Assembly: GCF_016463645.1 (NCBI RefSeq)
Contig: NZ_JAEMQX010000023.1
Location: forward strand, 1-43,617
Direction of reading: 5' to 3'
Source of the DNA: Sphingopyxis sp.
GTDB taxonomy: Bacteria; Pseudomonadota; Alphaproteobacteria; Sphingomonadales; Sphingomonadaceae
Length of the DNA: 43,617 nt
A model generated the notes under the pieces. It ran no database searches and had not been told where the DNA came from. It saw only the letters and a list, made by a program, of their open reading frames with translations. Numbering within the stretch: position 1 is the first letter of the stretch; each line of letters opens with the position of its first letter. A program made the position numbers and the translations under genes. Below are positions 1 through 29,922 of this stretch, piece by piece.

Positions 1-884
1 CGGATCGCTTCTATCCCGAGGAACAGCCGCTGCGCCGCGTCAAGGTCGACAGCTTCTGGATCGACGAGACGCCGGTGACCAACCGCGCTTTCGCCGAATT
101 CGTCACGGCGACGGGCTATCGCACCCTTGCCGAACTGCCGCCCGATCCGAAGCTGTATCCGGGCGCCGATCTGGAGGGGGTCGAGCCCGGATCGCTGCTC
201 TTCCGGAAAGCCGACGGCCTGATCCCGCTCGACGACCCGTCAGGATGGTGGGCCTTCGTCCCCGGCGTCGACTGGCGGCATCCGACCGGCCCCGAAAGCA
301 CGATCGAGGGGCTCGAGGATCATCCCGTCGTCCATGTCGCGCACTGCGATGCCGAGGCCTATGCGAAGTGGGCCGGAAAGTCGCTGCCGACCGAGGCCGA
401 ATGGGAATATGCCGCGCGCGGAGGCGTCGATGGACAGGATTATGCCTGGGGCGACGAGCTGGCGCCGGATGGCGCGATCCTCGCCAATTACTGGCTCGGC
501 CTTTTTCCGATTTCGACGACCAAAGCCGATGGGCAGTATCGCACGACGCCGGTCGGCAGTTTTCCGGCGAACGGCCATGGCCTCTTCGACATGATCGGCA
601 ACGTATGGGAATGGACGCGCGACTGGTACGCGGCGCCGCAGGCGGCGAAGAGCAAGTCGCCCTGCTGCGCGATCGCCAATCCGCGCGGCGCGACACTCGC
701 GCAAAGCTATGATGCCGCCGCCCCCGGCGCGCGCATCGGCCGCAAGGTCCTGAAGGGTGGCTCGCACCTTTGCGCAGTCAACTATTGCCAGCGCTACCGC
801 CCGGCGGCGCGGCATCCGCAACATGTCGACAGCGCGACAAGCCATATCGGCTTTCGCTGCGTGTCGCGACGAAAGGGAGAATGA
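1..884 (+). CDS. Formylglycine-generating enzyme (sulfatase-modifying factor), 5' end missing
   Basis: Converts the active-site Cys of sulfatases (CxPSR motif) to formylglycine with O2. The gene runs in from the left edge; the frame is open from base 3 and gives 293 residues, starting in the family's N-terminal strand (DSFWIDETPVTN). The C-terminus carries GGSHLCAVNYCQRYR, whose two cysteines (codons 771-773 and 786-788) match the catalytic pair of aerobic FGEs, and it ends in the family's GFRC motif. EAEWEYAARGG and DMIGNVWEW are further FGE-sulfatase domain signatures. The stop lies two bases before the start of sulfatase 1, so the two are probably cotranscribed. All five sulfatases of the window are Cys-type and would depend on this enzyme. 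Whether it is cytoplasmic or exported cannot be told because the N-terminus is missing. The GTG at 75 is an internal Val codon, not a start. Confidence 0.95.
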   Translation, partial: DRFYPEEQPLRRVKVDSFWIDETPVTNRAFAEFVTATGYRTLAELPPDPKLYPGADLEGVEPGSLLFRKADGLIPLDDPSGWWAFVPGVDWRHPTGPESTIEGLEDHPVVHVAHCDAEAYAKWAGKSLPTEAEWEYAARGGVDGQDYAWGDELAPDGAILANYWLGLFPISTTKADGQYRTTPVGSFPANGHGLFDMIGNVWEWTRDWYAAPQAAKSKSPCCAIANPRGATLAQSYDAAAPGARIGRKVLKGGSHLCAVNYCQRYRPAARHPQHVDSATSHIGFRCVSRRKGE

Positions 885-886
885 AC

Positions 887-2452
887 ATGTCACGTACCGC
901 GCACTGGACCCGCAGGGCCATGCTGGCCTTGCTGATCACGGCGACGTCGGCATGCTCGCAGGCACCTGCGCCGCGCGCAGCGCTGAACCCTGCGCCGGCA
1001 CCCGCAACGGCGCAGCGTCCCAACGTGCTGTTGATCCTCGTCGATGACCTCAAGCCCGCGCTCGGCACCTACGGCGATCGCACCGCGATCACCCCCAACA
1101 TGGATCGCCTCGCCCAGCGCGGCGTGCGCTTCGACCTCGCCTATGCCAACGAAGCGGTCTGTGCACCCAGCCGCATCAACCTGATGAGCGGCGCGCGCTC
1201 GACGAGCAGTGGTATCTATAATTTCGGGATGAACCTGCGCGACTATATGCCCGATGCGGTGACGCTCCCCGACTATTTCATGCGCGCCGGCTATCACACC
1301 GAAAGCATGGGCAAGGTCTATCACATCGGCCACGGCACCGTCGGCGACACCGCCGGCTGGTCGGTCCCGCACCACAAGGACAAGGTGATCGAATATGTCG
1401 ATCCCGCGAGTACCGGCGGAAAGCCCACGCAGGAAGAGGCGCTGTTCGAGGAAATTCCGGTCCCCGAGGGCAATCCCTTCGCCTATGCGCGCACGCTCGC
1501 GCGCGGCGCGGCATGGGAAATGCCCGATGTCGCCGACGACGCCTATGCCGACGGCCGCACCGCCAAGCGCGCGGAGGAACGGCTGAAGGCGCTGAAGCAG
1601 GGCAACCAGCCCTTCTTCCTCGCCGTCGGCTTCGCGCGGCCGCACCTGCCCTTCTCGGTCCCCAAACGCTATTGGGACATGTACGACCCGGCGAAGCTGC
1701 CGATGCCGAGCTTCGAAAAGCTGCCCGAGGGTGCACCCGCCTATACCGACAAGCAGGGCGGCGAGATCAACGCCTATCGCGAGCCGCCGCGCGATATCCG
1801 TGGTGACCAGTTCCCGCCGGAGATCAAGCGACAGTTGCTCCACGGCTATTATGCCGGCGTTTCCTATGTCGACGTCCAGATCGGCAAGGTGCTGAGGGCG
1901 CTCGAACGCGAAGGGCTCGCCGACAACACCATCGTCGTCCTGTGGGGCGACCATGGCTATCATCTCGGCGATCATGGCATCTGGACCAAGCACACCAACA
2001 TGGAACAGGCGACGCGCATCCCGCTGATCTTTGCGGGGCCCGGGATCGTCAGGGGACGCGAAACCCGCCAGCTCGCCGAAACCGTCGACATCTATCCGAC
2101 GCTCGCCGCCCTCGCCGCCCTGCCTGCGCCCAAGGGTCCGCAGCCGATCGACGGCACGTCGCTCGCGCCGGTGCTGCACGACCCGGCGGCGCGCGTACGC
2201 GGCTATGCCTATCACGCCTATCCGCGCCCCGGACGGCTCGGCCAGGCGATCCGTACCGACCGCTACCGCCTCGTCCGCTGGACGCAGGAAAAGACCGGCG
2301 CGCGCGATTATGAACTCTATGACCTCGTCGCCGATCCCGAAGAGACGCGCAACCAGGCGAACACGCTGCCCAAGGTTCGCGCCGAGCTCGACGCGATCCT
2401 CGACAGCCAGCCCGCGGCGCAGCCGATCAATGGCAAGCCTCGCAGAAACTGA
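887..2452 (+). CDS. Sulfatase 1, iduronate-2-sulfatase-like (S1_7-type), lipoprotein
   Basis: Exported sulfatase of 521 residues, probably removing sulfate from a sugar ring of the galactan. Residues 1-23 look like a lipoprotein signal with a twin-Arg start (TRRAMLALL) and a lipobox ending at Cys23. The catalytic domain has Asp53-Asp54 as calcium ligands and the CAPSR motif with the formylglycine Cys at residue 92. A GDHGYHLGDHGIWTK block resembles the second metal site of iduronate-2-sulfatases, which is why I favour S1_7; the subfamily is inferred. Start: ATG 887 is 7 bases after AGGGAGA, whereas the in-frame ATG 881 abuts it. The gene follows the FGE after two bases and ends before a strong terminator shared with the convergent GH43 gene. 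Confidence 0.9.
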   Translation: MSRTAHWTRRAMLALLITATSACSQAPAPRAALNPAPAPATAQRPNVLLILVDDLKPALGTYGDRTAITPNMDRLAQRGVRFDLAYANEAVCAPSRINLMSGARSTSSGIYNFGMNLRDYMPDAVTLPDYFMRAGYHTESMGKVYHIGHGTVGDTAGWSVPHHKDKVIEYVDPASTGGKPTQEEALFEEIPVPEGNPFAYARTLARGAAWEMPDVADDAYADGRTAKRAEERLKALKQGNQPFFLAVGFARPHLPFSVPKRYWDMYDPAKLPMPSFEKLPEGAPAYTDKQGGEINAYREPPRDIRGDQFPPEIKRQLLHGYYAGVSYVDVQIGKVLRALEREGLADNTIVVLWGDHGYHLGDHGIWTKHTNMEQATRIPLIFAGPGIVRGRETRQLAETVDIYPTLAALAALPAPKGPQPIDGTSLAPVLHDPAARVRGYAYHAYPRPGRLGQAIRTDRYRLVRWTQEKTGARDYELYDLVADPEETRNQANTLPKVRAELDAILDSQPAAQPINGKPRRN

Positions 2453-2471
2453 GGCGGGTCCGGAGGCAAAG

Positions 2472-2501
2472 AAAAGGCCGCGGTAACCCCGCGGCCTTTT
2501 T
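2472..2501. terminator. Bidirectional intrinsic terminator
   Basis: An 8-bp GC stem (2476-2483 with 2489-2496, loop TAACC) is flanked by AAAA on the left and TTTTT on the right. It can end both sulfatase 1 (+) and the TonB receptor 1-GH43 unit (-), which converge here. Confidence 0.9.
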
Positions 2502-2523
2502 GTTTGTCACGATGACCGAATGC

Positions 2524-3612
2524 TCAGCGACCGCGCGACGGCACCGGCATCGGTGTGGCGCTGGCGACGGGTTCGCCAAACTCCGGCCACCCCGCCTCGC
2601 TCCATCCGAAACGCTGGATATGCGGCGCCCGAGCGGGCGTGCATTTCATGCCCGGCCCGGGATTGGCGTGATAGATGATCCAGCTTTCCTTGCCGTCGGG
2701 CGAAGTGAAAAAGCCGTTGTGCCCCGTTGCATAGACACCGTTCGCGCTCTTGAAGACGGGCTGGGCGGTCTTCGTCCAGACCTTGGGGTCGAGTACGTCC
2801 GATCCCGCGGGCGCGTGCAGCAGACCGAGCGAATAATCGTCGGACCAGCAGGCGCTCGCCGAATAGGTGAGGAACAGGTCGCCCTTCGGCCCCAGCAGGA
2901 ACTCCGGACCTTCGAGAATCTGGCGCCCGCCCTGCTTTTCCCAAGGCTTGTCGGGCATCGCGATCACGCTTTCGGGCCCGGTGAGCGTCCAGGGATTGGC
3001 CATTTCCGCGATCGCCAAACCGCTGTCGGCACCGATATAGGGTGAGTAGGCGAAATAGCGTTTGCCGCCATGCTCGAAGACGGTGCCGTCGATCCCGGCC
3101 CGCGCGGTGTTCACGCGTCCGCGGTCGATCCACTCGCCCCGCATCGGATCGGCGCCGCTGTTCTCGAGCACGAAGACCGCGCGATGCTTGTCGTCCTTGA
3201 AGCCGCTCGCGGTGGCCGAATAGTAGAGATACCATTTTCCGTCGAGGCGATGCAGTTCGGGCGCCCAGATGCTGTGCGCGTTCGCCCCCTTGGCGGGCGG
3301 CGTCCACACGACGCGCTTCTCCGCTTTCGCAAGGTCGGCGATATTGTCGGTCCGCCACAGCATGAGGCGGTTGCCCAGCGTGTGCGTGTAATAATAGACG
3401 CCGTCCACCTGCATGATCCACGGATCGGGACCCGAGGGGAGCAGCGGGTTGCTGAAGGTCGCCGGCGACGCTTCGGCCCCGCCCGCCGGGGCGACCATGC
3501 CGGCCAGAAGCGCCGCGGCGAGCAGCGCCGCCGATCGGCGGGTGCGTCCGTCATATGACTTGTCGAGGCGGCGGGTCGAACCCGCCGCCCCCTTCCTGCA
3601 GGCAAGCTTCAT
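2524..3612 (-). CDS. Glycoside hydrolase family 43 protein, exported
   Basis: Five-bladed beta-propeller glycosidase of 362 residues. The GH43 triad can be placed: base Asp63 in GPDPWI, pKa-modulating Asp175 in AGIDGTVF, and acid Glu234 in LEGPEF; WAPELH around 117-121 is also typical. An unusually long basic N-terminus (about 27 residues) precedes the hydrophobic signal core, and cleavage is likely after GGAEA. The start at 3612 is supported by AAGGAA six bases upstream. It lies 17 bases behind TonB receptor 1 in the same direction, so it probably acts in the periplasm on oligosaccharides imported by that receptor. GH43 enzymes usually release arabinofuranose, xylose or beta-1,3-linked galactose. 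The sulfatase and galactose context favours a galactan side, but the substrate is not readable from sequence. A perfect hairpin lies inside codons 8-15. Confidence 0.88.
   Translation of the reverse strand: MKLACRKGAAGSTRRLDKSYDGRTRRSAALLAAALLAGMVAPAGGAEASPATFSNPLLPSGPDPWIMQVDGVYYYTHTLGNRLMLWRTDNIADLAKAEKRVVWTPPAKGANAHSIWAPELHRLDGKWYLYYSATASGFKDDKHRAVFVLENSGADPMRGEWIDRGRVNTARAGIDGTVFEHGGKRYFAYSPYIGADSGLAIAEMANPWTLTGPESVIAMPDKPWEKQGGRQILEGPEFLLGPKGDLFLTYSASACWSDDYSLGLLHAPAGSDVLDPKVWTKTAQPVFKSANGVYATGHNGFFTSPDGKESWIIYHANPGPGMKCTPARAPHIQRFGWSEAGWPEFGEPVASATPMPVPSRGR
3567..3589 (-). repeat. Perfect 10-bp hairpin at the receptor 1-GH43 junction
   Basis: Arms 3567-3576 and 3580-3589 pair perfectly around a three-base loop. 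The structure lies 23 bases inside the GH43 coding region, just after the receptor stop. There is no U tract, so it is not a classical terminator. It could protect the receptor mRNA or damp GH43 translation. Confidence 0.6.
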
Positions 3613-3629
3613 GCGATTTCCTTGTCCGT

Positions 3630-6443
3630 TCAGAATTTTACCCGGGCACCGATGCTATAGACCGTCTCGTCGCCCTGCAGCGCAAAGACGACCCGCTTGT
3701 CGCCCCAATAGGTCGACGTCTTGTTGCGCAGGATGTTCGTACCGCCCACGTCGAGCCGCAAAGCGTCGGTCACATCATAGCCGATGCTGAAGTCGAGACG
3801 GCCGGCGGGCCGGACATAGGACAGGAACACCGGGATATAGGGATCGTTGACCGGCCGGCTTTCGTCGTAGGGCCGTACCGCGACGCCGCCCGTGTTGTCG
3901 CCGTTGATATATTTGGAGCGGAAGGTCCAGATCAGGCGCCCGCTCAGGCCCTTTTTGTCATAGAGGAGGCCGGCGGTGTAATTATATTTGGACACCCCGA
4001 CCAGCGGGTTGCCCGCGAGCGGATCGTCGCCCTTGATCTTCGAATCCGCCAGGGTGAACGCACCCTGCACGCCGAAACCCGACAGCGCCCCCGGCAGGAA
4101 GTCGAAGAAATATTGCGCGCTGACCTCGATGCCCTTGAGGTCGACCGACCCGACGTTGCGCGGGGTGGAGATCAGGTAATTTTCGCCGCCGATCTCCTCC
4201 TGCCGGTTCGCGGTGACGACGCGGTCCTTGATCGAGCGATAATAGCCGGCGACCGCAACATAGCCGCTGTCGAAATAATATTCGGCGGTCAGGTCGATGC
4301 TGTCCGATTGTTGCGGACGCAGGTCGGGGTTGCCGCGCGTGCCGTTGTTGATCAGGAACACATTGCCGACGACGGTGAGCGATTCCGCAGGGTTGAGCGA
4401 GCCGAAATCGGGACGCCGCATCGACCGCGAATAGGTAAGGCGTGTCTGGAACGAGCCCGGGAATTTCAGCCGCGCGGTGGCCGATGGCAGGATATCGACG
4501 TCGGACCGCTTGGCGACGATCGGGCTGAAGACATTGCTGTCCTCGACGCGCTCGAAGCCCGAGATGGTGCGATCGGTCTTGACGACGCGCGTACCGACCA
4601 CGCCATCGAGCGTCAACGCGCCGATCGGGATTTCATAGCTGCCCTCGAGATAGGCGGCCAAGGTTTCCTCGCTGGCGTTGAATTCCTTCGTCGGATCGTA
4701 GGGCGGCGCCTCGAGGGGGAGGCCGAACAGATCGCGCAGTTCGTTCCGGCCGCGTTCGGAGCGCAGGTAGGCCGGATTCACGCCAAGGAACGCCTGACCA
4801 CCGTTGAGCCGCGGGGCAACGCCGATGACGCCCAGGAAATCGGGCGACAGCGGCAGGCTGGAAATCAGCCGCGCATTGGCTTCCGACGGCGTGCCGATAT
4901 TGCCGAAACCGATCGACTGGACGGTGTTGGTCTGGCGCACTTCCTGGAACCGCGCCTCACGCTTCGCATAGCGCAGGCCGCCCCGAAGCTTGGTCAGGAT
5001 GCCGTCGAATTCATATTCGCTGTCCATGCGTGCCTGGAACAGGCTGCCCTTGCCAGTCGAGAAATTCTGGTTGATCGAATTGCGGAGCGAGACATTCTCG
5101 GAGCTGAGCGGGATCGAGGGATCGATCGTGAAGGACGGACCGTCATTGTCGTCGAATTCGACGAAGATGGTCGGCACGCGCTGCCCCACCTCGGCGTTGA
5201 AATTCTCGGTCACCGAGCGCGATGTCTGATAGGCGACGTCGACCTTGAGCACGCCGCGATCCTGTTCGAAAATCAGGCCGCCGGCGATCATCTTGTTCCG
5301 CTGCGTCACTTCCTCGGACGAGCTGTTCTGGTTGATCACGACATTGTTGAAGCGCGCGCTCGTGGGCTCGCACATCGTTTTGACGGTCGCCGGCTGAAGC
5401 GTTGGCGTCACTTCCCCGGTATCCGGATCCACATTGTTCACGATCTGGGGGTTCGTCCCGGCACCGTTGACGCGCGCGTCGATGCAATAATCGCTGAGGG
5501 TGACCTCGGCGATCTGCGAACCATTGGTGAACGGTTGGGGGTTGAAACCGGCGAAGCCCGTGGTGCTGTTGAAATAGGTATAGAGGCCGTCGGCATAGAA
5601 TTGCAGCGACGGAGTCGCCTGCCATTGCAGCGCGGCATTGGCCTGAAAGCGCTTGATGTCCCCGACGTCGGGCATGTTGCGCAGCACCTGCGGCATCAGG
5701 ATGTCGGCGGTGCCGAACGGCGCCCCCGACACGAAACGACGCTCGCCCAGGTTGGTGACGCTGCGGATATTCTCGGCCTGCGAATAGGTCACATTGACCA
5801 GCGCGCCGATCTCGCCGATCGACGAATCGGTCTTGGCGGCGGCGAGAGCGCCGAATTGCGGATTGCTCGCGTCGGCGGTCGTCGCGTAATTCTGGCGCGC
5901 GGTCAGGACGAAGGTCGGGTCGCGAAAGTCGAAGGGGCGATTGAGCCGCAGGTCGAGCGCGCCGGCAACGCCGCCTTCGATCTGATCCGCGGTTTGCGAT
6001 TTGAATGCATCGATCCGCGCGAGCGCCTCTGCCGGGACGTCCTGCAGGTCGAAACCGCGCCCCGTGGTGGTCACCACCTCGCGGCCGTTCACCGTTGTCA
6101 AAATGTCGGTGAGGCCGCGGATGCGGACCGTCGACAGCTCGTTGTTGCGGTCGTTCTGGACCTGGATACCGGGTACGCGCTGCAGCGCGGCGGCGACGGT
6201 CGGGTCGGGCAATTTGCCGATGTCGGTCGCGACGATGGAATCGACGACCTGTGTTGCGTTGCGCTTTACCTCGGCCGCGCGTTCGAGCGACTGGCGCACG
6301 CCGGTGACGACGATATCGCCGTCGGCGCTTTCCGCTTGCTGGTCCGGATCCTGCGCGACCGGCGCCGCCGTATCCTGAGCAACCGCCGGCATCGAAACGA
6401 ATACGGCCGTTGCCGACACCGCACCCAACAAAGCCTTACGCAT
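3630..6443 (-). CDS. TonB-dependent receptor 1 (Xanthomonas/Caulobacter type)
   Basis: Outer-membrane active transporter of 937 residues, probably importing sulfated galactan oligosaccharides with TonB-ExbBD energy. It has a Sec signal (cleavage near residue 22, AVA-Q), a short acidic linker, and the plug domain starting DIVVTGVRQSLERAAEVKR with IGKLPD and PGIQV motifs typical of the TIGR01782-type group. A large beta-barrel follows and ends in an aromatic residue (ARVKF), the outer-membrane assembly signal. The start is preceded by GGGAGAGG. No SusD homologue is next to it, as expected for proteobacteria. It heads a two-gene unit with the GH43 gene. The AT-rich stretch around 6505-6530 is probably its promoter. 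A long open frame on the opposite strand is a GC-skew shadow. Confidence 0.95.
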   Translation of the reverse strand: MRKALLGAVSATAVFVSMPAVAQDTAAPVAQDPDQQAESADGDIVVTGVRQSLERAAEVKRNATQVVDSIVATDIGKLPDPTVAAALQRVPGIQVQNDRNNELSTVRIRGLTDILTTVNGREVVTTTGRGFDLQDVPAEALARIDAFKSQTADQIEGGVAGALDLRLNRPFDFRDPTFVLTARQNYATTADASNPQFGALAAAKTDSSIGEIGALVNVTYSQAENIRSVTNLGERRFVSGAPFGTADILMPQVLRNMPDVGDIKRFQANAALQWQATPSLQFYADGLYTYFNSTTGFAGFNPQPFTNGSQIAEVTLSDYCIDARVNGAGTNPQIVNNVDPDTGEVTPTLQPATVKTMCEPTSARFNNVVINQNSSSEEVTQRNKMIAGGLIFEQDRGVLKVDVAYQTSRSVTENFNAEVGQRVPTIFVEFDDNDGPSFTIDPSIPLSSENVSLRNSINQNFSTGKGSLFQARMDSEYEFDGILTKLRGGLRYAKREARFQEVRQTNTVQSIGFGNIGTPSEANARLISSLPLSPDFLGVIGVAPRLNGGQAFLGVNPAYLRSERGRNELRDLFGLPLEAPPYDPTKEFNASEETLAAYLEGSYEIPIGALTLDGVVGTRVVKTDRTISGFERVEDSNVFSPIVAKRSDVDILPSATARLKFPGSFQTRLTYSRSMRRPDFGSLNPAESLTVVGNVFLINNGTRGNPDLRPQQSDSIDLTAEYYFDSGYVAVAGYYRSIKDRVVTANRQEEIGGENYLISTPRNVGSVDLKGIEVSAQYFFDFLPGALSGFGVQGAFTLADSKIKGDDPLAGNPLVGVSKYNYTAGLLYDKKGLSGRLIWTFRSKYINGDNTGGVAVRPYDESRPVNDPYIPVFLSYVRPAGRLDFSIGYDVTDALRLDVGGTNILRNKTSTYWGDKRVVFALQGDETVYSIGARVKF

Positions 6444-6568
6444 AATCCTCTCCCTGTCTGACGCGTTTCGCGCGCTCGTACCACCCCGATATCGAGGCCT
6501 TGGAACGATAAATAATATAAAACGGAGAATATGGCAACGCGCGATGGCAACGAAACAGGGGCCGACCG

Positions 6569-6600
6569 AAAAAAATGCGCCGGAGGCGGGCTCCGGCGCA
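6569..6600 (-). terminator. Intrinsic terminator of the symporter-dgoKA-sulfatase 2 unit
   Basis: Read on the minus strand, a perfect 10-bp stem (6600-6591 with 6585-6576, five-base loop) is followed by seven U (A's at 6569-6575). It lies 30 bases beyond the sulfatase 2 stop. Confidence 0.92.
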
Positions 6601-6629
6601 TCATCACGTCGATTGGCCGGCAGCCGCCG

Positions 6630-8051
6630 TCAGTCGCTCTCACCGCTCATCGCCCCGCGTTCGAAGCGGGGCTTGACCGGGACCGACCCGCTGTCGCCCT
6701 GCGCCTTGCGCCAGGCTGCGAGGCGGCCGCGGAGGTCGGCCAACTGCTTGGCATAGCGCGGATCGCCCGCGAGGTTCACCTTCTCGTCGGGGTCCGCTGC
6801 CAGGTCATAGAGCTCCTCGGCGGGGCGCTTGTAATAGCTGTCGACGACCGCCTTCGCGGCCGGATCCTTGTCGGCCGCCTCGCGCCACGAGGGGAAATAG
6901 GCGCCCGAGTCCGTGCGCATCACCTTCAGGTCGATGTGCGTCGTATAGGTCCAGTCGGGATGCAGATTCTCGATATATTTCCAGCGGTCGGTGCGAATGC
7001 TGCGCATCGGATAGACATTGACGCGGCCGTCATTGTTGTGAGTCGTGAAAATCTCCTTGCGGCCCGCCGCCGCCTGTCCGCCACCGAAGAGGCCGGCGAA
7101 GGAAAGCCCGTCGATGCCTTCCGGCTTCTTGCCGCCGGCGAGCTCGACCAGCGTCGGCAGGACGTCCACCCAGCTGACCATCGCGTCGGTCCGGGTGCCC
7201 GCCTTCACATGACCGTTCCAGCGCACGACCATCGGCACGCGCGTGCCGGTGTCGTAGAGGTTCCACTTGCCGAAGGGCCACTGCGTGCCATGATCGGTCG
7301 AATAGAGGACGAAGGTATCCTTGCCGAGCACCGCATCGACCGCGTCCATCGTCGATGCGAGGTCCTGATCCATGCGCGTGACCGCCGCATAGAAACGCGC
7401 GCGCGCGTCGCGGGTGATCGGCGTATCGACCGTCTTGGGCGGCAGTTTCATCGCGGCCGGGTCATAGCCCTCGGTCGTCCGCGGCCACGGAACATGCGGC
7501 CAGTTGGTGCCGACGAACAGCGCGAGCGGGCGCTTGTCCTTGCGCGCCTTCAGCCATTCGGCGGCCGCCGGGATACCCTTGTGATCGTGGAAAGTGTCGT
7601 TCGCATAATAATCGAAACCATAGGTTCCCGTGTGCTGGTAATGCGCGACCTTGCCGAAGGCGACGACCTCATAGCCCTGTTCCTGGAGATAGGAGGGCAG
7701 CTTGCGGATCGCCGCATTGGCGCGGTCGTGGTTCGCCTCCGCGCCGTTGCGCGCGGGCATCATCCCGGTGAGCAGCGCGGCGCGGCTCGGCGCGCAGGCC
7801 GGCGAGGCGACGAAGGCACGATCGAACGACATGCCTTCGGAAGCGAGACGTTGCAGCGCCGGGGTGCGGACATTCGCATCGCCGCCGAGCGGAACGTCGG
7901 CATAGCTCAGGTCATCGGCGAGGAAGATCACGATATTGGGCTTCGCCGGCGACTTGGCGGCGCCCTGCGCATGGCCGGGCGCGGCAGAAGCGAAGGAAAA
8001 GGCGAGGGCGCTCGATACGAGCACCAGGTTACGCCGGCTGAATTTGGACAT
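6630..8051 (-). CDS. Sulfatase 2, heparan N-sulfatase-like (S1_8-type)
   Basis: Exported sulfatase of 473 residues. The N-terminus MSKFSRRNLVLVSS looks like a twin-arginine signal, with a cleavage site near GHAQ (26-29). Asp46-Asp47 are calcium ligands and Cys86 in ACAPSR is the formylglycine precursor. The compact fold with PHVPWP and the short C-terminus resemble N-sulfoglucosamine sulfohydrolase-like proteins (S1_8), so an O-sulfated sugar is only the likely substrate here. ATG 8051 follows GGGAGA by seven bases; a longer in-frame extension has no ribosome binding site and overlaps dgoA. It sits 26 bases behind dgoA in an otherwise cytoplasmic galactonate operon and is followed by a terminator, so desulfation and galactose breakdown appear to be co-ordered. 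Confidence 0.9.
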   Translation of the reverse strand: MSKFSRRNLVLVSSALAFSFASAAPGHAQGAAKSPAKPNIVIFLADDLSYADVPLGGDANVRTPALQRLASEGMSFDRAFVASPACAPSRAALLTGMMPARNGAEANHDRANAAIRKLPSYLQEQGYEVVAFGKVAHYQHTGTYGFDYYANDTFHDHKGIPAAAEWLKARKDKRPLALFVGTNWPHVPWPRTTEGYDPAAMKLPPKTVDTPITRDARARFYAAVTRMDQDLASTMDAVDAVLGKDTFVLYSTDHGTQWPFGKWNLYDTGTRVPMVVRWNGHVKAGTRTDAMVSWVDVLPTLVELAGGKKPEGIDGLSFAGLFGGGQAAAGRKEIFTTHNNDGRVNVYPMRSIRTDRWKYIENLHPDWTYTTHIDLKVMRTDSGAYFPSWREAADKDPAAKAVVDSYYKRPAEELYDLAADPDEKVNLAGDPRYAKQLADLRGRLAAWRKAQGDSGSVPVKPRFERGAMSGESD

Positions 8052-8077
8052 CGGATATCTCCCGGATTGTAGAGTTT

Positions 8078-8707
8078 TTATCGGCCGAGCGCCGCGATGA
8101 AGGCGCGCGCGCGGTCGCCGACGTCGCTCGCACCCATGCCGGGCTTGTAGAGCGCCGACCCGAGGCCGAAGCCCGCTGCCCCCGCCGCGAGCCACGGTTC
8201 CATATTGTCGGGCGCGATCCCGCCGACGGGCAGCAGCCGCGTCCCCGCGGGGACCACCGCTCCCAGCGCCTTGAGAACCGCCGGGCTCGCCGCCTCGGCC
8301 GGAAAGAGCTTCAGCGCCGCCGCGCCTGCCGCCAGCGCGGCGAAGGCCTCGCTGGGCGTCGCGAAGCCAGGCAATGACACGAGGCCCGCGCCGGCGGCTG
8401 CGGCGACGACGTCGACATCGGTGTTGGGCGAAATGATCATCGTCCCGCCGGCGTCGGCGACAGCGGCGACATCGGCGGTCGTCAGCACCGTGCCGGCGCC
8501 GATGACCGCGCGGCCCTTCATCCGGCCGGCAAGGCGGCCGATGCTATCCAGCGGGTCGGGCGAATTCAGCGGGACCTCGATCAGCGTGAAACCGGCCTCG
8601 ACCAGTGCTTCGCCGATCGCTTCGACCTCGTCCGGCTTCACGCCGCGCAGGATCGCGATCAGCGGACAGCGCGCGAAGGCGGCGTCGAAGGCGGCAACAT
8701 GGGTCAT
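8078..8707 (-). CDS. dgoA: 2-dehydro-3-deoxy-6-phosphogalactonate aldolase
   Basis: Splits KDPGal into pyruvate and glyceraldehyde 3-phosphate, the last step of the De Ley-Doudoroff pathway; cytoplasmic. The 209-residue length and motifs fit the KDPG/KDPGal aldolase family. LIAILRG opens the first strand, Glu44 in IEVPLNSP is the general acid/base, Lys133 in ALKLFPAEA forms the Schiff base, and VGGIAPDN binds phosphate. IPLNSP/VPLNSP and GLGSALY favour the galactonate type over Eda. ATG 8707 overlaps the dgoK stop in an ATGA, so the two are translationally coupled. Confidence 0.93.
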   Translation of the reverse strand: MTHVAAFDAAFARCPLIAILRGVKPDEVEAIGEALVEAGFTLIEVPLNSPDPLDSIGRLAGRMKGRAVIGAGTVLTTADVAAVADAGGTMIISPNTDVDVVAAAAGAGLVSLPGFATPSEAFAALAAGAAALKLFPAEAASPAVLKALGAVVPAGTRLLPVGGIAPDNMEPWLAAGAAGFGLGSALYKPGMGASDVGDRARAFIAALGR

Positions 8708-11168: not shown

Positions 11169-11195
11169 ACGGACTCTCCCCTTGGCTGATTATTG

Positions 11196-12045: not shown

Positions 12046-12057
12046 ACGCCCGGCTCG

Positions 12058-14065: not shown

Positions 14066-15876
<1,811 letters not shown>

Positions 15877-15916
15877 ATATATCCTTCTCGATGATCATTT
15901 CAGGCCATGGCCAGAA

Positions 15917-20891: not shown

Positions 20892-20907
20892 CTTCTCCTG
20901 ATCCTGA

Positions 20908-22485: not shown

Positions 22486-22510
22486 GACCCTCTCCCGTTC
22501 GCTTGAGTAG

Positions 22511-22524
22511 GATATATCTGATTT
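22511..22524 (-). promoter_or_regulatory. Copy of the recurring ATCAGA motif upstream of sulfatase 3
   Basis: On the minus strand it reads AAATCAGATATATC and lies 26-39 bases upstream of the TTG start. The inner GATATATC is itself a palindrome. Confidence 0.5.
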
Positions 22525-22549
22525 ATTTGAGGCGCGCAACGCGGCTGGG

Positions 22550-23674: not shown

Positions 23675-23726
23675 ATCGCTCCTCCCCATATCAAGCCGCA
23701 ATCTTGACTCATCTTAATTATACGAT

Positions 23727-23740
23727 AATACAGATATAAC
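23727..23740 (+). promoter_or_regulatory. Weaker copy of the ATCAGA motif in the sulfatase 4/GH-A paralogue B gap
   Basis: AATACAGATATAAC differs from the other copies at two or three positions. It lies 31 bases before the sulfatase 4 start and 52 before paralogue B, in an AT-rich divergent promoter gap. Confidence 0.4.
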
Positions 23741-23771
23741 GATGACGTAAGACTGGGCAAGGGAGGAAGGG

Positions 23772-25229
23772 ATGAAATCGTCACGGCGCACGCGTCGATG
23801 GGCGATCGGGGCGGCAGGAGCCGCCCTTTTCGCGATGCTCGGCGCCGGCATTACCTCCGCCCCCGGTTTCGCCCAGACCCGCCCGCCGGTGAAATCGGAC
23901 CGGCAAGCTCCGGCGAAACGGCCGAACATCCTGTTCATCCTGATCGACGACATGGGCTATGCCGATCTGTCGCTGACCGGCAACAAGCTCGTCGCGACCC
24001 CGAACATCGACGCGCTCGCCCGCGACGGCATGGTGATGACGCAATTCTATGACGCGGCGCCGATCTGCTCGCCATCGCGCGCCGGTTTCATGACCGGCCG
24101 CTTCCCGGCTCGCGACCGCTTCGGCACCTACATTCACGACCGCAAGCGCAACCGCGAGTTCGGCCAGGCCGACTGGCTCGACCCCGCGCTGCCGGTCCTG
24201 CCGCGCCTGATGCGGCAGGCGGGCTATACCACCGGTCATTTCGGCAAATGGCACCTCGGCGGCGGGCGCGACATCGGCGACGCGCCGCTTCCCTCGGCCT
24301 ATGGCTTCGACGAAAGCTATACCCAGTGGGAAGGCCTCGGGCCGCGCGTCTTGCCGACCGATCTCACCAACCGGCTCGGGCAGCAAAGCGCCGAGCTTGG
24401 TCAGGGACCGGTCGAATGGCTCCCCCGCGCGGAGATCACCGGCCGCTTCGTCGACAAGACGCTCGATTTCGTCGGGCGCAGTAAGGACCGCCCATGGTTC
24501 GCGCAGCTCTGGCTCACCGACATGCACACGCCGTGGGTTCCCAGCGCCGGGCAGCTCGCCGCAACAAAAGGCAAGGGCGCCACACCGCGCGAGGACGAGT
24601 TCCTCGCGGTCCTCGTCGCGATGGACGCCGAGATCGGCCGGCTCGTCGACGGCCTGCGACGGGCGGGCGAACTCGACGACACGCTGATCGTCTTCACCTC
24701 GGACAATGGCCCCACCATCGGCGCCAACACACCGGGTTCGGCGGCGCCCTATCGCGGCCGGAAGGCGAGCTTGTACGAGGGCGGCATGCGCCAGCCGCTG
24801 ATCGTCCGCTGGCCCGGCCATATAGCAGGCGGCGGACGCGACGCGCGGAGTGTCGCGCAGGCGGTTGACCTGCTTCCGACGCTCGCCGCGATCTCCGGCG
24901 CGACCAAGCCGGCGGGGATCGACGGCATCGACATTTCCGCTGCCTGGCGCGGACGGCCCATCACCGCGCGTCCCGATATCTACAGTCATATCGCCCGGCC
25001 CGGCGGCGAAGCCTTCGGTCCGCTCTATTCGATCCGCTCGGGTCCCTGGAAACTATTGATGAATGCCGACGGCAGCGGAGCCGAACTCTACAATATCGAA
25101 GAGGATCCGCAGGAACAGCGTGATCGCAAGGCCGAGGCTCCCGCGATCACGACAAGGCTGTCGGCGCAGCTCTCGAAATGGATCGCCGGCCTGCCGCCGC
25201 CAGCCTTGCCGCGACGCCGCGCGATGTAG
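23772..25229 (+). CDS. Sulfatase 4, arylsulfatase A-like
   Basis: Exported sulfatase of 485 residues with an Arg-rich N-terminus (RRTRRWAIGAAGAALF) and cleavage near GFAQ. Asp59-Asp60 are calcium ligands and Cys99 in ICSPSR is the formylglycine precursor; GKWHLGGG and TSDNGP are further active-site motifs, and YEGGMRQPLIVRWPG is the C-terminal family block. An AGFMTGRFPARDRFG stretch after the Cys is close to what I recall of sulfatases from red-algal galactan loci, but I do not assign a subfamily. A very strong GGGAGGAAGGG precedes ATG 23772. The gene is divergent from GH-A paralogue B and lies 87 bases before TonB receptor 2 in the same direction. Confidence 0.9.
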   Translation: MKSSRRTRRWAIGAAGAALFAMLGAGITSAPGFAQTRPPVKSDRQAPAKRPNILFILIDDMGYADLSLTGNKLVATPNIDALARDGMVMTQFYDAAPICSPSRAGFMTGRFPARDRFGTYIHDRKRNREFGQADWLDPALPVLPRLMRQAGYTTGHFGKWHLGGGRDIGDAPLPSAYGFDESYTQWEGLGPRVLPTDLTNRLGQQSAELGQGPVEWLPRAEITGRFVDKTLDFVGRSKDRPWFAQLWLTDMHTPWVPSAGQLAATKGKGATPREDEFLAVLVAMDAEIGRLVDGLRRAGELDDTLIVFTSDNGPTIGANTPGSAAPYRGRKASLYEGGMRQPLIVRWPGHIAGGGRDARSVAQAVDLLPTLAAISGATKPAGIDGIDISAAWRGRPITARPDIYSHIARPGGEAFGPLYSIRSGPWKLLMNADGSGAELYNIEEDPQEQRDRKAEAPAITTRLSAQLSKWIAGLPPPALPRRRAM

Positions 25230-25316
25230 TGCGCGGCCAAGGTGCCGGCCGAGGCTTCCTGCTTTATTTTATCATATTAATTCCATAAGTGACCGACAAC
25301 CAAGGGGGAGAGTTAA

Positions 25317-28055
25317 ATGCGAAACCGAATAATCCTGGCGTGCACGACGTCGGCTCTGGGGCTTCTGGCCATGCCGTCGGCTGCGCTGGCGCAGGATCAG
25401 GACGCGCAGATTACGGTCGATTCGGCGCCGGACGATCCGACGGCCGACGACGCGATCGTCGTCACCGCGATCCAGCGCAGCCTCGAAACGTCGCAGGCGA
25501 TCAAGGAGGATTCGGACCAGATCGTCGATTCGATCGTCGCAGAGGACATCGGCAAGCTGCCCGACGTGACCGCGACCGAATCGCTCGCCCGCATCACCGG
25601 CGTCCAGGTCGACTATGCCAATGGCACCGCCGCCGGCACCCGCGTGCGCGGCCTGCCGAACATCACGACGACCTATAACGGACGCGAACTCTTCACCGGT
25701 CAGGGCCGCGCCGTCGCACTGCAGGATTTCCCGTCGAGCAGCATCGCACGCCTCGACGTCTACAAGTCGGGGAGCGCCAATCTCCTCGAACCCGGCGTCG
25801 CCGGCCTGATCGACGTGCGCGCCCGCAAGCCGCTCGACTTCAAGGGCGACCGCATCGCCGGCGGCATCAGCGGCGTGCACTGGAAGCAGTCGCAAAAGCT
25901 CGGCGTCGACGCGAACCTTTTGCTCAGCAAGCGCTGGGAGACGGGCATCGGCGACATCGGCTTCCTGATCGAGGGATCCTACACCGACCTCAAATTCCTC
26001 GATTCCGCGCGCAACGTCGCGCAGGCGATTCTCAGCCGCGACGTCGCCGGCCTTGGAACCATCCGCTATCCGTCGTTCGTCAACATCAACTATAACACGG
26101 CCGACCGCTACCGCCCGTCGGTGGCGACCGCGCTGCAATGGCGCCCGAGCAACGAGCTCGAATTCTACGCCGACTTCCTGTTCCAAGGCTATCGCAGCGA
26201 CGGCTATGGCAGCAACCTCCAGATCAACTCGGGCGTCCAGGCCAATCTGACCGATATCGAGCTGTTTCCCGGCACCAACAAGGTCAAGAGCATGACCGCG
26301 ACCGCCGGCGGCATCCCGACGGGCAACCAGAATATCGTCACCGGCAAGACCGACACCTATCAGGCCGGCACCGGTTTCATCTGGAAGCGCGACGGTCTGA
26401 AGATCACCGGCGACGTGGCCTTCACCGATTCGACCTTCACGCGGCGGACGACGCAGTTCAACTATTCGCTCGTCGTACCGCAGCCGACGCGCACCTTCGA
26501 TTTCGAAACCGACGTCGGCGCGGGCGGCGGCTCCGTCGTTGTCGACAATTTCCCCGTCAACGATCCCGCCCGCTACCGCATGGTGGGGCTCGGCGAAAAT
26601 GGCGAGCGCAATCATGGCCGCGACTGGCAGGGTCGGCTCGACCTCGACTACCGGATGGGTCCGACGGGCATCACCAACATCCAGGCCGGTGTCCGTTTCA
26701 ACAGCCGTGACTTCGATTTCGCCAATTATTCGGAAAGCGGCACCGCGGCGGCGGGACGCTTTTATTCGCTGCTGCCGCTCGAATACAGCACCGTCGCGCC
26801 CGGTTTCCGCGGCGACAAGGTGCCGGTCACGCGCGTCTTCCTGACGCCGACAGCCGACAGCATCATGGAAAATCTCGACTTCCTGCGCTCGATCAGCGGC
26901 GGGCGCACCGAGGTTCCGCCACTCGAGCAAGTCTATTTCGGGAATGAAAAGGGATATGCCGGCTATGTCCAGGGCCGTTACGCCTTCGACCTCGGCAGCA
27001 TGACCGTCGACGGCCTGGTCGGTCTGCGCGCCGTGCGCACCGAAACCGATATCAACGGGTTCGACCGTGTGACCGAGGGCGGCGAGACGATCCTCCGGCC
27101 GGTATCGCGCAGCAAATCCTATAATGATTTCCTGCCCAACGTCAGCGCGCGTCTGCGTCTGACGCCCAAGCTGCAGCTTCGCCTCGCCTTCACCGAAACG
27201 CGGACGCGTCCGGGCTTTGGCGACCTCAACCCGTCGCTCACGATCGGCGCGCCGGCGACGATCTGCACGCCCAGCCCGGACAATCCGGAGGCGGGGCCGA
27301 ACAATCCCAATTGCGTCCGCACCTCGAACGGCGGCAATGCCGACCTCGACCCGATCAAGTCGCAAAACTATGACGCGTCGCTCGAATGGTATTTCTCGCG
27401 CGGCGGCTCGCTGACGCTCGGTGTGTTCCACCGCGACGTGACCGGCTTCATCTCCGACTTCACGACCGATGTCGAAGACGCCGAATTCGGCCGGCTGCGC
27501 GTGACGCGGCCGTTCAACGGTGGTGAAGGGCGACTGCGCGGCATCGAGGCGGCTTTCCGTACCTTCCTTCGCTTCCCGCAACTGCCCGAATGGCTGCAGA
27601 ATTTCGGCGTGCTCGCAAATTACACATATATCGACCACGGGACCGAATTGCCCGAGGCACTGGCCGCAACCCTTCCGGGCAAGCAACGGATCGCAGGCGT
27701 GTCGAACCATATCGCCAACGCGTCGGTCTTCTACGAGAACCGGTCTTTCTCGGCCCGCCTCTCGTACAACTATCGCTCGGACTTTGTGGTCGAATATAAC
27801 CGCGTGAACGATCCGACGCTCGGCGCGGCGGTGCTGGGCCCGACGCTGCCGGTGGTCGAGGACGGCCGTGGCAGCCTCGATTTCAACGCCACGCTCGATC
27901 CGACCGAGAATGTCACCATCTCGTTCAGCGCCACCAATTTGCTGGGCGCAGCGGCGACGAACCACCGGCAATATGACGCCGACGGCAACACCTATCCGTG
28001 GCAGACTCGTTTCCTCGAGACGATCTACCGCGTGGGCGTCCGCTTCCGCTTCTGA
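25317..28055 (+). CDS. TonB-dependent receptor 2 (Xanthomonas/Caulobacter type)
   Basis: Outer-membrane importer of 912 residues. It has a Sec signal (cleavage near AALA-Q), an acidic linker, and a plug domain with AIVVTAIQRSLETSQAIKE, IVAEDIGKLPDVTATESLARITGVQV and TTYNGREL. The barrel ends in VRFRF. It is clearly divergent from receptor 1, so the two may take up different sizes or sulfation forms of the glycan. GGGGGAGAG lies before ATG 25317. The upstream gap (25230-25316) is AT-rich with TTTATTTTATCATATTAATT, suggesting its own promoter in addition to read-through from sulfatase 4. It ends in a strong terminator. Confidence 0.95.
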   Translation: MRNRIILACTTSALGLLAMPSAALAQDQDAQITVDSAPDDPTADDAIVVTAIQRSLETSQAIKEDSDQIVDSIVAEDIGKLPDVTATESLARITGVQVDYANGTAAGTRVRGLPNITTTYNGRELFTGQGRAVALQDFPSSSIARLDVYKSGSANLLEPGVAGLIDVRARKPLDFKGDRIAGGISGVHWKQSQKLGVDANLLLSKRWETGIGDIGFLIEGSYTDLKFLDSARNVAQAILSRDVAGLGTIRYPSFVNINYNTADRYRPSVATALQWRPSNELEFYADFLFQGYRSDGYGSNLQINSGVQANLTDIELFPGTNKVKSMTATAGGIPTGNQNIVTGKTDTYQAGTGFIWKRDGLKITGDVAFTDSTFTRRTTQFNYSLVVPQPTRTFDFETDVGAGGGSVVVDNFPVNDPARYRMVGLGENGERNHGRDWQGRLDLDYRMGPTGITNIQAGVRFNSRDFDFANYSESGTAAAGRFYSLLPLEYSTVAPGFRGDKVPVTRVFLTPTADSIMENLDFLRSISGGRTEVPPLEQVYFGNEKGYAGYVQGRYAFDLGSMTVDGLVGLRAVRTETDINGFDRVTEGGETILRPVSRSKSYNDFLPNVSARLRLTPKLQLRLAFTETRTRPGFGDLNPSLTIGAPATICTPSPDNPEAGPNNPNCVRTSNGGNADLDPIKSQNYDASLEWYFSRGGSLTLGVFHRDVTGFISDFTTDVEDAEFGRLRVTRPFNGGEGRLRGIEAAFRTFLRFPQLPEWLQNFGVLANYTYIDHGTELPEALAATLPGKQRIAGVSNHIANASVFYENRSFSARLSYNYRSDFVVEYNRVNDPTLGAAVLGPTLPVVEDGRGSLDFNATLDPTENVTISFSATNLLGAAATNHRQYDADGNTYPWQTRFLETIYRVGVRFRF

Positions 28056-28078
28056 TCCCCTACTCCTCGGGATCCATC

Positions 28079-28116
28079 GGCCCGCAATCGCCACCGGCGA
28101 TTGCGGGCCTTCTTTT
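28079..28116 (+). terminator. Intrinsic terminator after TonB receptor 2
   Basis: A perfect 14-bp stem (28079-28092 with 28096-28109, loop ACC) followed by TTCTTTT. On the other strand no U tract follows, so it serves the receptor only. Confidence 0.93.
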
Positions 28117-28143
28117 CCGGATGCACGGCGCGGGCTCACCGCT

Positions 28144-29922
28144 TCATTCTTCGCCAGCCGCTTGCGCCGCCCGCTTGCGCTTGCCTTTCGCGCGCTTGCC
28201 CTTGCCCGGCCCCGGCGCGGCGCCGCCTTCGAGGCGCCCCTTCACCACCCCGCCGTCGACCTTCTTCGTCCAGGGATCGACGAAGCTGCTCGCCGCCCAA
28301 TCCTCCCATTGCTTCGCCATGCGCGCAGCGATGTCGGGGTGCTTTGCCGCTAGGTCGCGCGTTTCGGTGCGATCGGCGTTCATGTCATAGAGCCGCCAGG
28401 GCGCGCCGAGCTGCGCGACGAGCTTCCACCGGCCGTCGCGAACCGCCTTGTTGCCCTCATGCTCCCAAAAGATCGGGACGTTGCGGGCCAGCGGTTCGCC
28501 CTCGAACGCACCGGCAAAGCTGCGGCCGGACATGGGGCGAATGTCGTGTCCATCGAAGCGCGCGGGATATTTTGCCCCCGCCAGCTCCGCCAGCGTCGGC
28601 ATGACGTCGACGAGATGACCGGGCTCGCGCACCAGCGTGCCCCGAACCTTCGCGTCGATACCCGCGGGCCACGATGCGATCATCGGCGTCGCGATCCCGC
28701 CTTCTTCGGCATAATGCTTGAAAAAGCTGAACGGGGTGTTCTGGAGCGTCGCCCAGTTGAGCCCGACCCAGACATTCGAATCCTTGCCGCCCCACGGCGC
28801 CGCACCGGTCCGCCCGTCGGGGCCGCTTTCGGCATTGCCGCCGTTGTCCGACATGAACAGGATCAGCGTATTGTCGAACTCGCCGCGTGCCTTGAGGTCG
28901 GCGACCAGCGTCCCGATCGCCTTGTCCATGCGCGAGATGGCGGCGGCATAAACCGCCATGATCTCGTCGAACCGCTGTTTGTCGGCGGCCGACATGCTGT
29001 TCCAGTCATAAGCCTCGGGAAGCACGTCGGGCAGCGTTGCGTCCGCCGCGACAAGTCCCATCTTTTTCTGGCGTTCGAAACGGTCGCGGCGCAGCTGTTC
29101 CCAGCCGACCATATATTTGCCCTTGAACTTCGCGATGTCTTCGGCGGGTGCCATCACCGGAAAATGAACCGCGGTCAGGGGCAGGTAGAGGAAGAAAGGT
29201 TTGCCGGCCGCCTTTGCCTCGTCGACGAAGCGCACGGTCCAGTCGACCAGCATGTCCGATGCGTACCATTCGCCTTTTCCGACTTCGGGCGAATCGGTCG
29301 GCACCTGCCTGCCGTCGATCGTCACCGATGCCCGTCCCGGGCCGGGCTGCCCGGGAAAATAGGTTCCGCCCTTCTGGAACATCGACCGGTCGAATCCGAC
29401 CGCCTTTGGCGGCGTGCCATGCTGCGCGCCGACATGCCATTTGCCCGCCATGCCGGTGAAATAGCCGGCGGGTTTCAGCACCTCGGCGATGGTGACCGCG
29501 CGATCGGCGATCCGCCCCTGAAACCCTCCGAGGCCCGGACGGACGACATTGTCGAGCCCGCCGACGCCCGCTTCGTGCGGATAAAGACCCGTCAGCAGCG
29601 AGGCGCGCGACGGGCTGCACCGCGCGCTGTTATAGAATTGCGTGAAACGGACGCCGCTCGCGGCAAGCGCGTCGAGATTGGGCGTCGGGATTTCGCTGCC
29701 ATAGGGGCCGATGTCCGAAAACCCCATATCGTCGACCAGGATGACGATCACATTGGGGCGCTTGGCCGCCTGGGCTTTCGTCGATGCAGCCGCATGGACG
29801 GGTGCCTGTACCGTTGCCGCGATCGCATTGGGTCCGGCAAGCAGCGCCAGCGCACTCACGCCGGTGATCGTACCGAGAACGCCGCTTTTTACGAACTTCA
29901 TCATTTTCGCGCATATCCTCAT
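28144..29922 (-). CDS. Sulfatase 5, arylsulfatase (S1_4-type) with basic C-terminal tail
   Basis: Exported sulfatase of 592 residues. The Sec signal has its core at about 13-30. Asp64-Asp65 are calcium ligands and Cys102 in RCSPSR is the formylglycine precursor; LLTGLYPHEAGVG after it is a hallmark of S1_4 arylsulfatases. GKWHVG and MSDNGGNAESG complete the active site. After the family C-terminus (KQWEDWA) comes a tail of roughly 45 residues ending in a lysine/arginine-rich run (GKGKRAKGKRKRAA), which is not normal for the family and could bind an anionic glycan. ATG 29922 is the first candidate; ATG 29904 or 29901 would give a tidier signal, and no ribosome binding site decides. It converges with TonB receptor 2. 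Confidence 0.88.
   Translation of the reverse strand: MRICAKMMKFVKSGVLGTITGVSALALLAGPNAIAATVQAPVHAAASTKAQAAKRPNVIVILVDDMGFSDIGPYGSEIPTPNLDALAASGVRFTQFYNSARCSPSRASLLTGLYPHEAGVGGLDNVVRPGLGGFQGRIADRAVTIAEVLKPAGYFTGMAGKWHVGAQHGTPPKAVGFDRSMFQKGGTYFPGQPGPGRASVTIDGRQVPTDSPEVGKGEWYASDMLVDWTVRFVDEAKAAGKPFFLYLPLTAVHFPVMAPAEDIAKFKGKYMVGWEQLRRDRFERQKKMGLVAADATLPDVLPEAYDWNSMSAADKQRFDEIMAVYAAAISRMDKAIGTLVADLKARGEFDNTLILFMSDNGGNAESGPDGRTGAAPWGGKDSNVWVGLNWATLQNTPFSFFKHYAEEGGIATPMIASWPAGIDAKVRGTLVREPGHLVDVMPTLAELAGAKYPARFDGHDIRPMSGRSFAGAFEGEPLARNVPIFWEHEGNKAVRDGRWKLVAQLGAPWRLYDMNADRTETRDLAAKHPDIAARMAKQWEDWAASSFVDPWTKKVDGGVVKGRLEGGAAPGPGKGKRAKGKRKRAAQAAGEE

Follow-up and report, generated by a model that had tools for sequence, protein, structure and literature searches.

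Sulfated galactans are plentiful but resist degradation, and the enzymes known to act on them stem mostly from marine bacteria. In Bacteroides plebeius, polysaccharide utilization loci (PULs) for a sulfated arabinogalactan protein (AGP) combine sulfatases, GH43 and GH2 enzymes with TonB-linked import of the SusC type; the excerpted account names sulfatases of S1_8 and S1_14 and mentions no protein of the kind called GHA below (PMC8406133). In the λ-carrageenan PUL of Pseudoalteromonas distincta, S1_15, S1_8 and GH2 enzymes free galactose from a sulfated galactan, with GH150 and GH110 as further members and no GH43 in the cascade as excerpted (PMC12549532). Here we describe a TonB-type PUL that occupies positions 1 to 29,922 of contig NZ_JAEMQX010000023.1 of a Sphingopyxis-like genome; this whole contig (C144; 43,617 nucleotides) is referred to as the window, and the genome, 94.8% complete, consists of 270 contigs and 4.55 Mb. 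The locus resembles the B. plebeius PULs in its sulfatases, GH43 and GH2 proteins and TonB-linked import, and differs from them by an S1_15 sulfatase, two uncharacterized clan GH-A-type proteins (GHA1 and GHA2) and a De Ley-Doudoroff galactose route. With the P. distincta locus it shares the S1_15 and GH2 members and a sulfatase weakly nearest S1_8, while GH150 and GH110 are not recognized here and GH43 proteins are present. As a whole, the PUL fits a familiar type; what stands out is a clan GH-A protein that lies outside the family libraries searched and is linked to a single sulfatase subfamily across three groups of bacteria.

Pfam and NCBIfam matches bear out the gene inventory of an initial annotation made from the window alone, namely a formylglycine-generating enzyme (FGE), five Cys-type sulfatases, two TonB receptors, GH43 proteins, an esterase and a galactose route (Table 1). 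All five sulfatases carry the motif C-x-P-x-R and match PF00884 at 135 to 189 bits. As judged by family, the De Ley-Doudoroff set is complete, with a dehydrogenase, a lactonase, a dehydratase, a 2-keto-3-deoxy-galactonate (KDGal) kinase and a 2-dehydro-3-deoxy-6-phosphogalactonate (KDPGal) aldolase. A sulfated, galactose-yielding glycan is well supported as the target by FGE, the Cys-type sulfatases, one of them S1_15, and this route, which in other sphingomonads recurs next to the same enzymes.

GHA1 and GHA2, which the initial annotation had left unassigned, are paralogues with 76% identity, and their N-termini, read by eye, are signal-peptide-like. The AlphaFold model of GHA is a (β/α)8 barrel with a pLDDT of 89.5, in which the putative acid/base E138, preceded by Asn in N137-E138-P139, follows strand 132-135 at the β-4 end and the putative nucleophile E246 follows strand 241-245 at the β-7 end; both Glu residues are invariant in 32 of 32 aligned members. 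Neither protein matched a Pfam family at an E value of 0.001 or an NCBIfam family at 0.01. Glycosidase models, the GH53 profile included, gave no match to the 32 members at E values up to 10 within the HMMER filters, an NCBIfam search of 13 members singled out no family, and phmmer with GHA1 against the PDB returned nothing at E values up to 10. By Foldseek GH53 ranked best (E of 1e-5), but GH164, GH10 and GH26 scored similarly; by Z score in structural alignments (VIA-align), GH1, GH164 and GH5 were ahead among the families listed. Since these searches single out no family, an assignment of GHA to a known one was rejected. GHA shares with the clan GH-A hydrolases GH53, GH164, GH5 and GH1 the barrel fold and the Glu pair after β-4 and β-7, and differs from them in having 9 to 16% identity in structural alignments and no family profile match. 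By "unclassified" we mean outside Pfam, NCBIfam and the PDB as searched, which we offer as a lead without claiming a new CAZy family; in the Creative Commons (CC)-licensed literature of PubMed Central (PMC) we found no description of the GHA family or of a locus of its kind. For the backbone cleavage that is missing from the inventory, GHA1 and GHA2 as modeled are the strongest candidates. Of the three sources offered initially for the depolymerizing step, i.e., enzymes outside the window, other microbes or the unassigned proteins, the last is now the best supported, by the clan GH-A fold and the catalytic pair.

In the order sample, 8 of 396 genomes had a match at an E value of 0.001 or better, the present genome included, and one of these was set aside as weak (107 residues, E of 8e-4), leaving seven solid GHA genomes; the phylum sample gave 2 of 398 (this genome and one of the same family) and the class sample 1 of 385 (this genome), all three samples being thin for other groups. 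Thirty named GHA loci comprise 20 from sphingomonads (Sphingopyxis, Sphingomonas and others), one from Steroidobacter agaridevorans, one from Pantoea, six from actinomycetes and two from Verrucomicrobiota assemblies. The Steroidobacter protein has 72 to 75% identity, and a second copy, at 35%, lies nearby together with a GH97 gene. Plasmid records add relatives at 25 to 30% identity from Rhizobium, Catenovulum adriaticum and Bacteroides finegoldii.

The neighborhoods of these genes often link GHA with SulfC. Counted by BLAST at 200 bits or more within the fetched flanks, some of which are cut by contig ends, a SulfC relative lies near GHA in 18 of the 30 loci (17 of the 20 sphingomonad loci and Steroidobacter); TonB receptor 2 recurs in 17, GH43b in 16 and galactose dehydrogenase in 9. 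In the order sample, a strong SulfC relative is present in six of the seven solid GHA genomes versus 10 of 389 others (Fisher P of about 1e-8), the GHA and SulfC searches being taken to cover an identical set of 396 genomes. Outside these loci, an S1_15-type sulfatase lies about 8 kb from GHA in C. adriaticum (NZ_CP109966.1), with GH43 proteins in the same neighborhood, and one adjoins GHA in B. finegoldii (NZ_OY725927.1), with GH43 proteins nearby. Both loci resemble ours in the sulfatase (47 to 48% identity to SulfC), the GHA relative (25%) and the GH43 proteins, and differ in belonging to another class or phylum and in their GHA copies, which have extra stretches and are annotated as hypothetical; we found no description of either in the CC-licensed PMC literature. 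The B. finegoldii record is labeled a plasmid and carries mutS, lgt and ychF, and it thus looks more like a piece of chromosome.

We tentatively propose, at somewhat less than an even chance, that GHA founds an unclassified clan GH-A family that would cleave a 6-sulfated galactan backbone; GHA, an S1_15 sulfatase and a GH43 protein would make up a transferable module of three genes, shared across algal, soil and gut settings by Alphaproteobacteria, Gammaproteobacteria and Bacteroidota, with a tandem Glu-to-Asp copy in some sphingomonads. Such copies were seen in two Sphingomonas genomes (G278 and G350; loci L023 and L024), where a tandem GHA paralogue stands beside an intact copy and both catalytic Glu residues are replaced by Asp (GND and TDF); a pseudoenzyme or an altered activity is possible. 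Separately, ten genomes of one other genus of the order (G021, G032, G045, G048, G051, G060, G066, G084, G086 and G101) carry S1_15-type sulfatases with 49 to 55% identity to SulfC and have no GHA match in the order sample; in the three of these neighborhoods that were inspected, there was no GHA and no relative of the window genes beyond sulfatases.

SulfC matches PF00884 at 182 bits, with CTPSR at residue 133 of its open reading frame (ORF). Its eight best PDB chains score 448 to 558 bits, among them 9bas and 9bau, which are named S1_15, and 6s20, and the next chain drops to 191; the other best chains are presumably S1_15 as well. Judged by sequence similarity, SulfC belongs with S1_15. Characterized members, in the excerpted accounts, take the 6-sulfate off galactose or N-acetylgalactosamine (PMC12549532, PMC10154612), with a triad of His and Asp/Arg that reads O3 and O4 of galactose (PMC10154612).

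The other sulfatases are less readily placed. Confident subfamily placement of SulfB and SulfD was dropped, the nearest matches being weak for the former and near equal for the latter. We take SulfA to be S1_7, its nearest chain 6hhm to be an ulvan sulfatase, and SulfE to be S1_4. Together with the galactose route, the sulfatase relationships point to 6-sulfated and otherwise sulfated galactose units. The N-termini of SulfC and SulfB show SRR followed by a hydrophobic stretch, and that of SulfA shows RR with a lipobox-like Cys; the first two, we assume, resemble twin-arginine translocation (Tat) signals, and Tat export would fit formation of formylglycine (FGly) by FGE before export.

GH43a, which we take to be GH43_26, appears by its similarities to be of the arabinofuranosidase type, which fits arabinofuranose side chains. 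For GH43b, the AlphaFold model is poor (mean pLDDT of 69.9) and the Foldseek list says only GH43-like; therefore, no activity is given to it. The SASA-type esterase has no relative among the 30 related loci, some of which stop short of that place, and therefore seems not to belong to the conserved core; in Sphingopyxis italica, the genes flanking its site are about 110 bp apart, and it looks like an insertion in this genome or a loss in S. italica.

Reading the sequence left of position 1, as the initial annotation had advised, showed by synteny in two Sphingopyxis genomes that the locus extends onto contig C106. In S. italica and Sphingopyxis sp. JAI108, the last 3 kb of C106 and the first 1.7 to 2.1 kb of the window map to adjoining stretches, with gaps of 50 and 51 bases at the junction, and the first codons of the FGE gene form the end of C106. 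The single continuous block described earlier thus stands in its contents and not in its left limit. This arm brings the sulfatases of the locus to eight or more and adds glycosidases to those in the window, and the suggestion that depolymerization lies outside the window is partly true, since C106 carries GH2, GH5-like and GH43 genes. The two SulfD-like sulfatases of C106 have CSASR and CSSSR in place of the C-x-P-x-R of the window sulfatases; we take Pro or Ala to be usual at the third place of the motif, from which the CSSSR of the protein at 14373-15896 departs. Three further PF00884 matches lie off the locus, on C56 (about 55.8 to 59.5 kb) and C108 (about 30.3 to 31.1 kb), bringing the genome total to 11.

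Our preferred reading, to which we give about an even chance, is that the PUL targets a galactose-rich polysaccharide bearing sulfate and arabinofuranose, with a sulfated arabinogalactan from algae or plants as the likeliest candidate. Such a polymer (e.g., that of Codium, or the sulfated wine AGP in the excerpted account of PMC8406133) would account for galactose, sulfate and arabinose together. Of the parts expected in a sulfated arabinogalactan PUL, the sulfatases and the GH43a type are present, and a galactanase role for GHA is a prediction. The gene content, the Cys motifs of the sulfatases, the S1_15 relationship, the predicted GHA fold with its catalytic pair, the genomic linkage of GHA with SulfC and the extension onto C106 are results; the substrate, the cleaved bond, the order of steps and their cell location we infer as follows. 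The TonB receptors would import the polymer or large fragments. FGE would convert the active-site Cys of the sulfatases, of which SulfC would remove sulfate from O6 of galactose and the others probably from other positions, while GH43a would trim arabinofuranose. The paired GHA1 and GHA2, modeled as retaining glycosidases, may cut galactosidic bonds after 6-desulfation by SulfC, or may recognize the 6-sulfated unit itself, with GH43b and the GH2, GH5-like and GH43c proteins of C106 finishing to monosaccharides. Galactose would then pass through the mutarotase and the symporter, be oxidized to KDGal, phosphorylated and cleaved by the aldolase to pyruvate and glyceraldehyde-3-phosphate.

Several points weigh against this reading. 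No arabinose catabolism gene was recognized in the scanned locus proteins, the genome not having been searched for one; there is no clear exo-β-1,3-galactanase, as GH43b matches 5flw at 23 bits only; and the activity of GH43a rests on sequence similarity. The scan behind the 30 named loci started from sphingomonad patterns, so that these loci lean to close relatives, and the Fisher test ignores shared ancestry. No SulfC relative lies near GHA in 12 of the 30 loci, i.e., Pantoea, the six actinomycetes, the two Verrucomicrobiota and three second Sphingomonas loci, and the Rhizobium copy likewise has none nearby, so that the substrate of GHA need not be sulfated. S. agaridevorans, according to the excerpted account (PMC7966939), degrades agar as well as larch arabinogalactan, which does not decide the polymer. 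SulfC, SulfB with its weak likeness to S1_8, and the GH2 protein also resemble the λ-carrageenan cascade, a likeness weighed below. Ten neighbor proteins of the SulfC-less copies were run on Pfam. One locus without SulfC, in Streptomyces sp. GESEQ-4 (L070), has FGE-like (43%) and SulfA-like (30%) genes 6 to 8 kb off, and another, in Saccharopolyspora (L073), has a GH65 gene as the GHA neighbor. Beside a Streptomyces GHA lies a protein of 809 residues without a Pfam match (L071:6427-8856, minus strand), and another Streptomyces locus (L072) has a protein with 83% identity to it near GHA.

The main rival to a sulfated arabinogalactan is a galactan of the λ-carrageenan type, i.e., a sulfated α/β-D-galactan without anhydrogalactose, on which GHA would replace GH150 or GH110 in an S1_8/S1_15/GH2 cascade. 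The cascade as excerpted uses S1_8, S1_15, GH110, GH150 and GH2 (PMC12549532), for which this locus offers SulfC, SulfB and the GH2 protein of C106, and no enzyme for anhydrogalactose is needed. However, the arabinofuranosidase-type GH43a and two more GH43 proteins have no place in it, Pfam recognized no GH110- or GH150-like protein among the scanned locus proteins (no dedicated genome search was made), and the named GHA relatives belong mostly to non-marine genera. Altogether, we regard this rival as unlikely.

Quite unlikely, in our estimate, is that the sulfatases act on another sulfated glycan, such as a sulfated heteroxylan or pectic or mucin-like chains, whose galactose side chains alone the galactose route would serve. 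The nearest chain to SulfA, the presumed ulvan sulfatase, and the xylosidase/arabinofuranosidase-type structures nearest GH43c are consistent with this possibility, and the S1 subfamily of a sulfatase does not by itself reveal the polymer, but the galactose route lies inside the block and also beside GHA and SulfC in several other sphingomonads, SulfC groups with galacto-configured 6-sulfatases, and no xylose, uronate or rhamnose genes were recognized among the scanned window proteins.

A locus for κ/ι-carrageenan, agar or porphyran, with its endo-enzyme elsewhere in the genome, is very unlikely. Two GH16 proteins, the only matches in the genome, do lie on other contigs (C40 and C113); S. agaridevorans, whose GHA is close, degrades agar in the excerpted account (PMC7966939) and has three GH127 matches; and in S. 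italica, which shares the locus, one GH127 match lies outside it. In contrast, GH127 (PF07944) gave no match in the present genome, 94.8% complete, or in two of three Sphingopyxis relatives (GH129 and GH167 were not searched genome-wide), no GH16 was found among the scanned proteins of the window or the C106 arm (no dedicated GH82 model was searched), the sulfatases, ambiguous SulfD excepted, are not closest to carrageenan-specific ones, and an arabinofuranosidase-type GH43 is present. With no GH127 match in the genome and GH16 matches only on other contigs, κ/ι-carrageenan or agar is not favored. It had been stated initially that the window contains no known carrageenase, and Pfam recognized none, the C106 arm proteins included. 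The prediction of a sulfated, carrageenan-like galactan therefore stands in its sulfated, galactose-yielding part; carrageenan-like, as a first choice, was rejected given that no GH127 match was found in the genome, that no known carrageenase was recognized in the locus and that GH43a is arabinofuranosidase-like.

That GHA1 and GHA2 are TIM-barrel binding proteins or pseudoenzymes and not hydrolases is most improbable: no characterized GHA relative was found and the tandem paralogues in L023 and L024 have Asp for both Glu residues, but the pair is invariant in the 32 aligned members and placed as in clan GH-A, and the apparent signal peptides and the PUL context argue against a binding role.

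The genome was correctly read as that of a sphingomonad. A GyrB-type protein at the right end of the window has 96 to 98% identity to three Sphingopyxis genomes and 78 to 90% to Novosphingobium, Sphingomonas and Pacificimonas, and most PUL genes share 83 to 97% identity with their counterparts in Sphingopyxis sp. LC363, S. italica and Sphingopyxis sp. JAI108 (87 to 95% for most genes in S. italica DSM 25229), the symporter being less alike (76% to S. italica); these identities place the genome in Sphingopyxis or very near it. To the right of the PUL, the genes that start at 30198 and beyond (LuxR-type regulator, E1-type dehydrogenase, DUF4129, DUF4350, MoxR-type AAA, DUF58, SpoIIM and GyrB) seem not to belong to it.

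Table 1. Features of the PUL in the window (C144) and on its left arm (C106); MFS, major facilitator superfamily; SSS, sodium:solute symporter
Feature	Contig	Position	Strand	Remarks
PUL portion in window	C144	1..29922	.	Pfam; continues leftwards on C106
FGE	C144	3..884	+	PF03781, 260 bits; 5' end cut by contig end
SulfA, Cys-type S1	C144	770..2452	+	nearest PDB chain 6hhm (303 bits), then iduronate-2-sulfatase (211)
GH43a	C144	2524..3612	-	nearest PDB chains 3akf (exo-arabinofuranosidase, 211 bits), 9nxg, 9nxj, 3k1u
TonB-dependent receptor 1	C144	3630..6443	-	Pfam; TIGR01782
SulfB, Cys-type	C144	6630..8195	-	weakly nearest S1_8A (137 bits), then N-sulphoglucosamine sulphohydrolase (121), S1_8B (114)
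KDPGal aldolase, DgoA type	C144	8078..8707	-	PRK09140, 269 bits (cut-off 207)
2-Keto-3-deoxy-galactonokinase, DgoK	C144	8704..9579	-	PF05035, 264 bits
SSS, probable inner-membrane uptake	C144	9573..11168	-	Pfam, NCBIfam
GntR/FCD regulator	C144	11283..12038	+	Pfam
Aldose/galactose 1-epimerase (GalM)	C144	12058..13206	-	Pfam
SMP-30/gluconolactonase (SGL) family, probable galactonolactonase	C144	13211..14182	-	PF08450, 246 bits
IlvD/EDD dehydratase, probable galactonate dehydratase	C144	14065..15876	-	passes broad PRK13017 cut-off, not that of a galactonate-specific model
Gfo/Idh/MocA dehydrogenase, probable galactose 1-dehydrogenase	C144	15988..16905	+	Pfam, NCBIfam
SASA-type acetylesterase, accessory	C144	16784..17788	+	Pfam SASA, 48.5 bits
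GH43b, tandem-domain GH43-like	C144	17860..19767	-	frequent GHA neighbor
GHA2, unclassified, clan GH-A-type glycosidase (predicted)	C144	19764..21137	-	likely start ORF Met83 (~20891); E211, E319 of ORF
SulfC, S1_15 (6-sulfo-galactose type)	C144	20908..22641	-	likely start ~22488 from alignments of relatives of 525-526 aa
GHA1, unclassified, clan GH-A-type glycosidase (predicted)	C144	22550..23701	-	likely start ORF Met10 (~23674); E138, E246
SulfD, Cys-type S1	C144	23772..25229	+	nearest chains 7stt (190.5 bits), S1_16 (190), 6bia (177)
TonB-dependent receptor 2	C144	25317..28055	+	Pfam; TIGR01782
SulfE, Cys-type S1	C144	28144..29922	-	nearest 7all (320 bits), Pseudomonas-type arylsulfatase 1hdh (308)
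S1 sulfatase, SulfE-like	C106 (locus L026)	1585-3297	-	
Third TonB receptor	C106	3512-6361	+	
SulfD-like sulfatase	C106 (L026)	6406-7884	-	motif CSASR
GH2 protein	C106	7900-9903	-	
MFS transporter	C106	9936-11240	-	
GH5-like protein	C106	11416-12567	+	S. italica ortholog weakly matches Pfam Cellulase; no PDB match
GH43c, third GH43	C106	12564-13502	+	nearest xylosidase/arabinofuranosidase-type GH43 structures
Second GntR	C106	13504-14235	-	
Second SulfD-like sulfatase	C106 (L026)	14373-15896	+	motif CSSSR

A sphingomonad PUL that carries a GH-A protein outside the searched families leads to the hypothesis that the key step is performed by a single sulfatase and a single glycosidase whose genes are frequent neighbors. 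If this is true, GHA could found a glycosidase family, and a polymer would be named that sphingomonads, a soil gammaproteobacterium and a gut Bacteroides may share.

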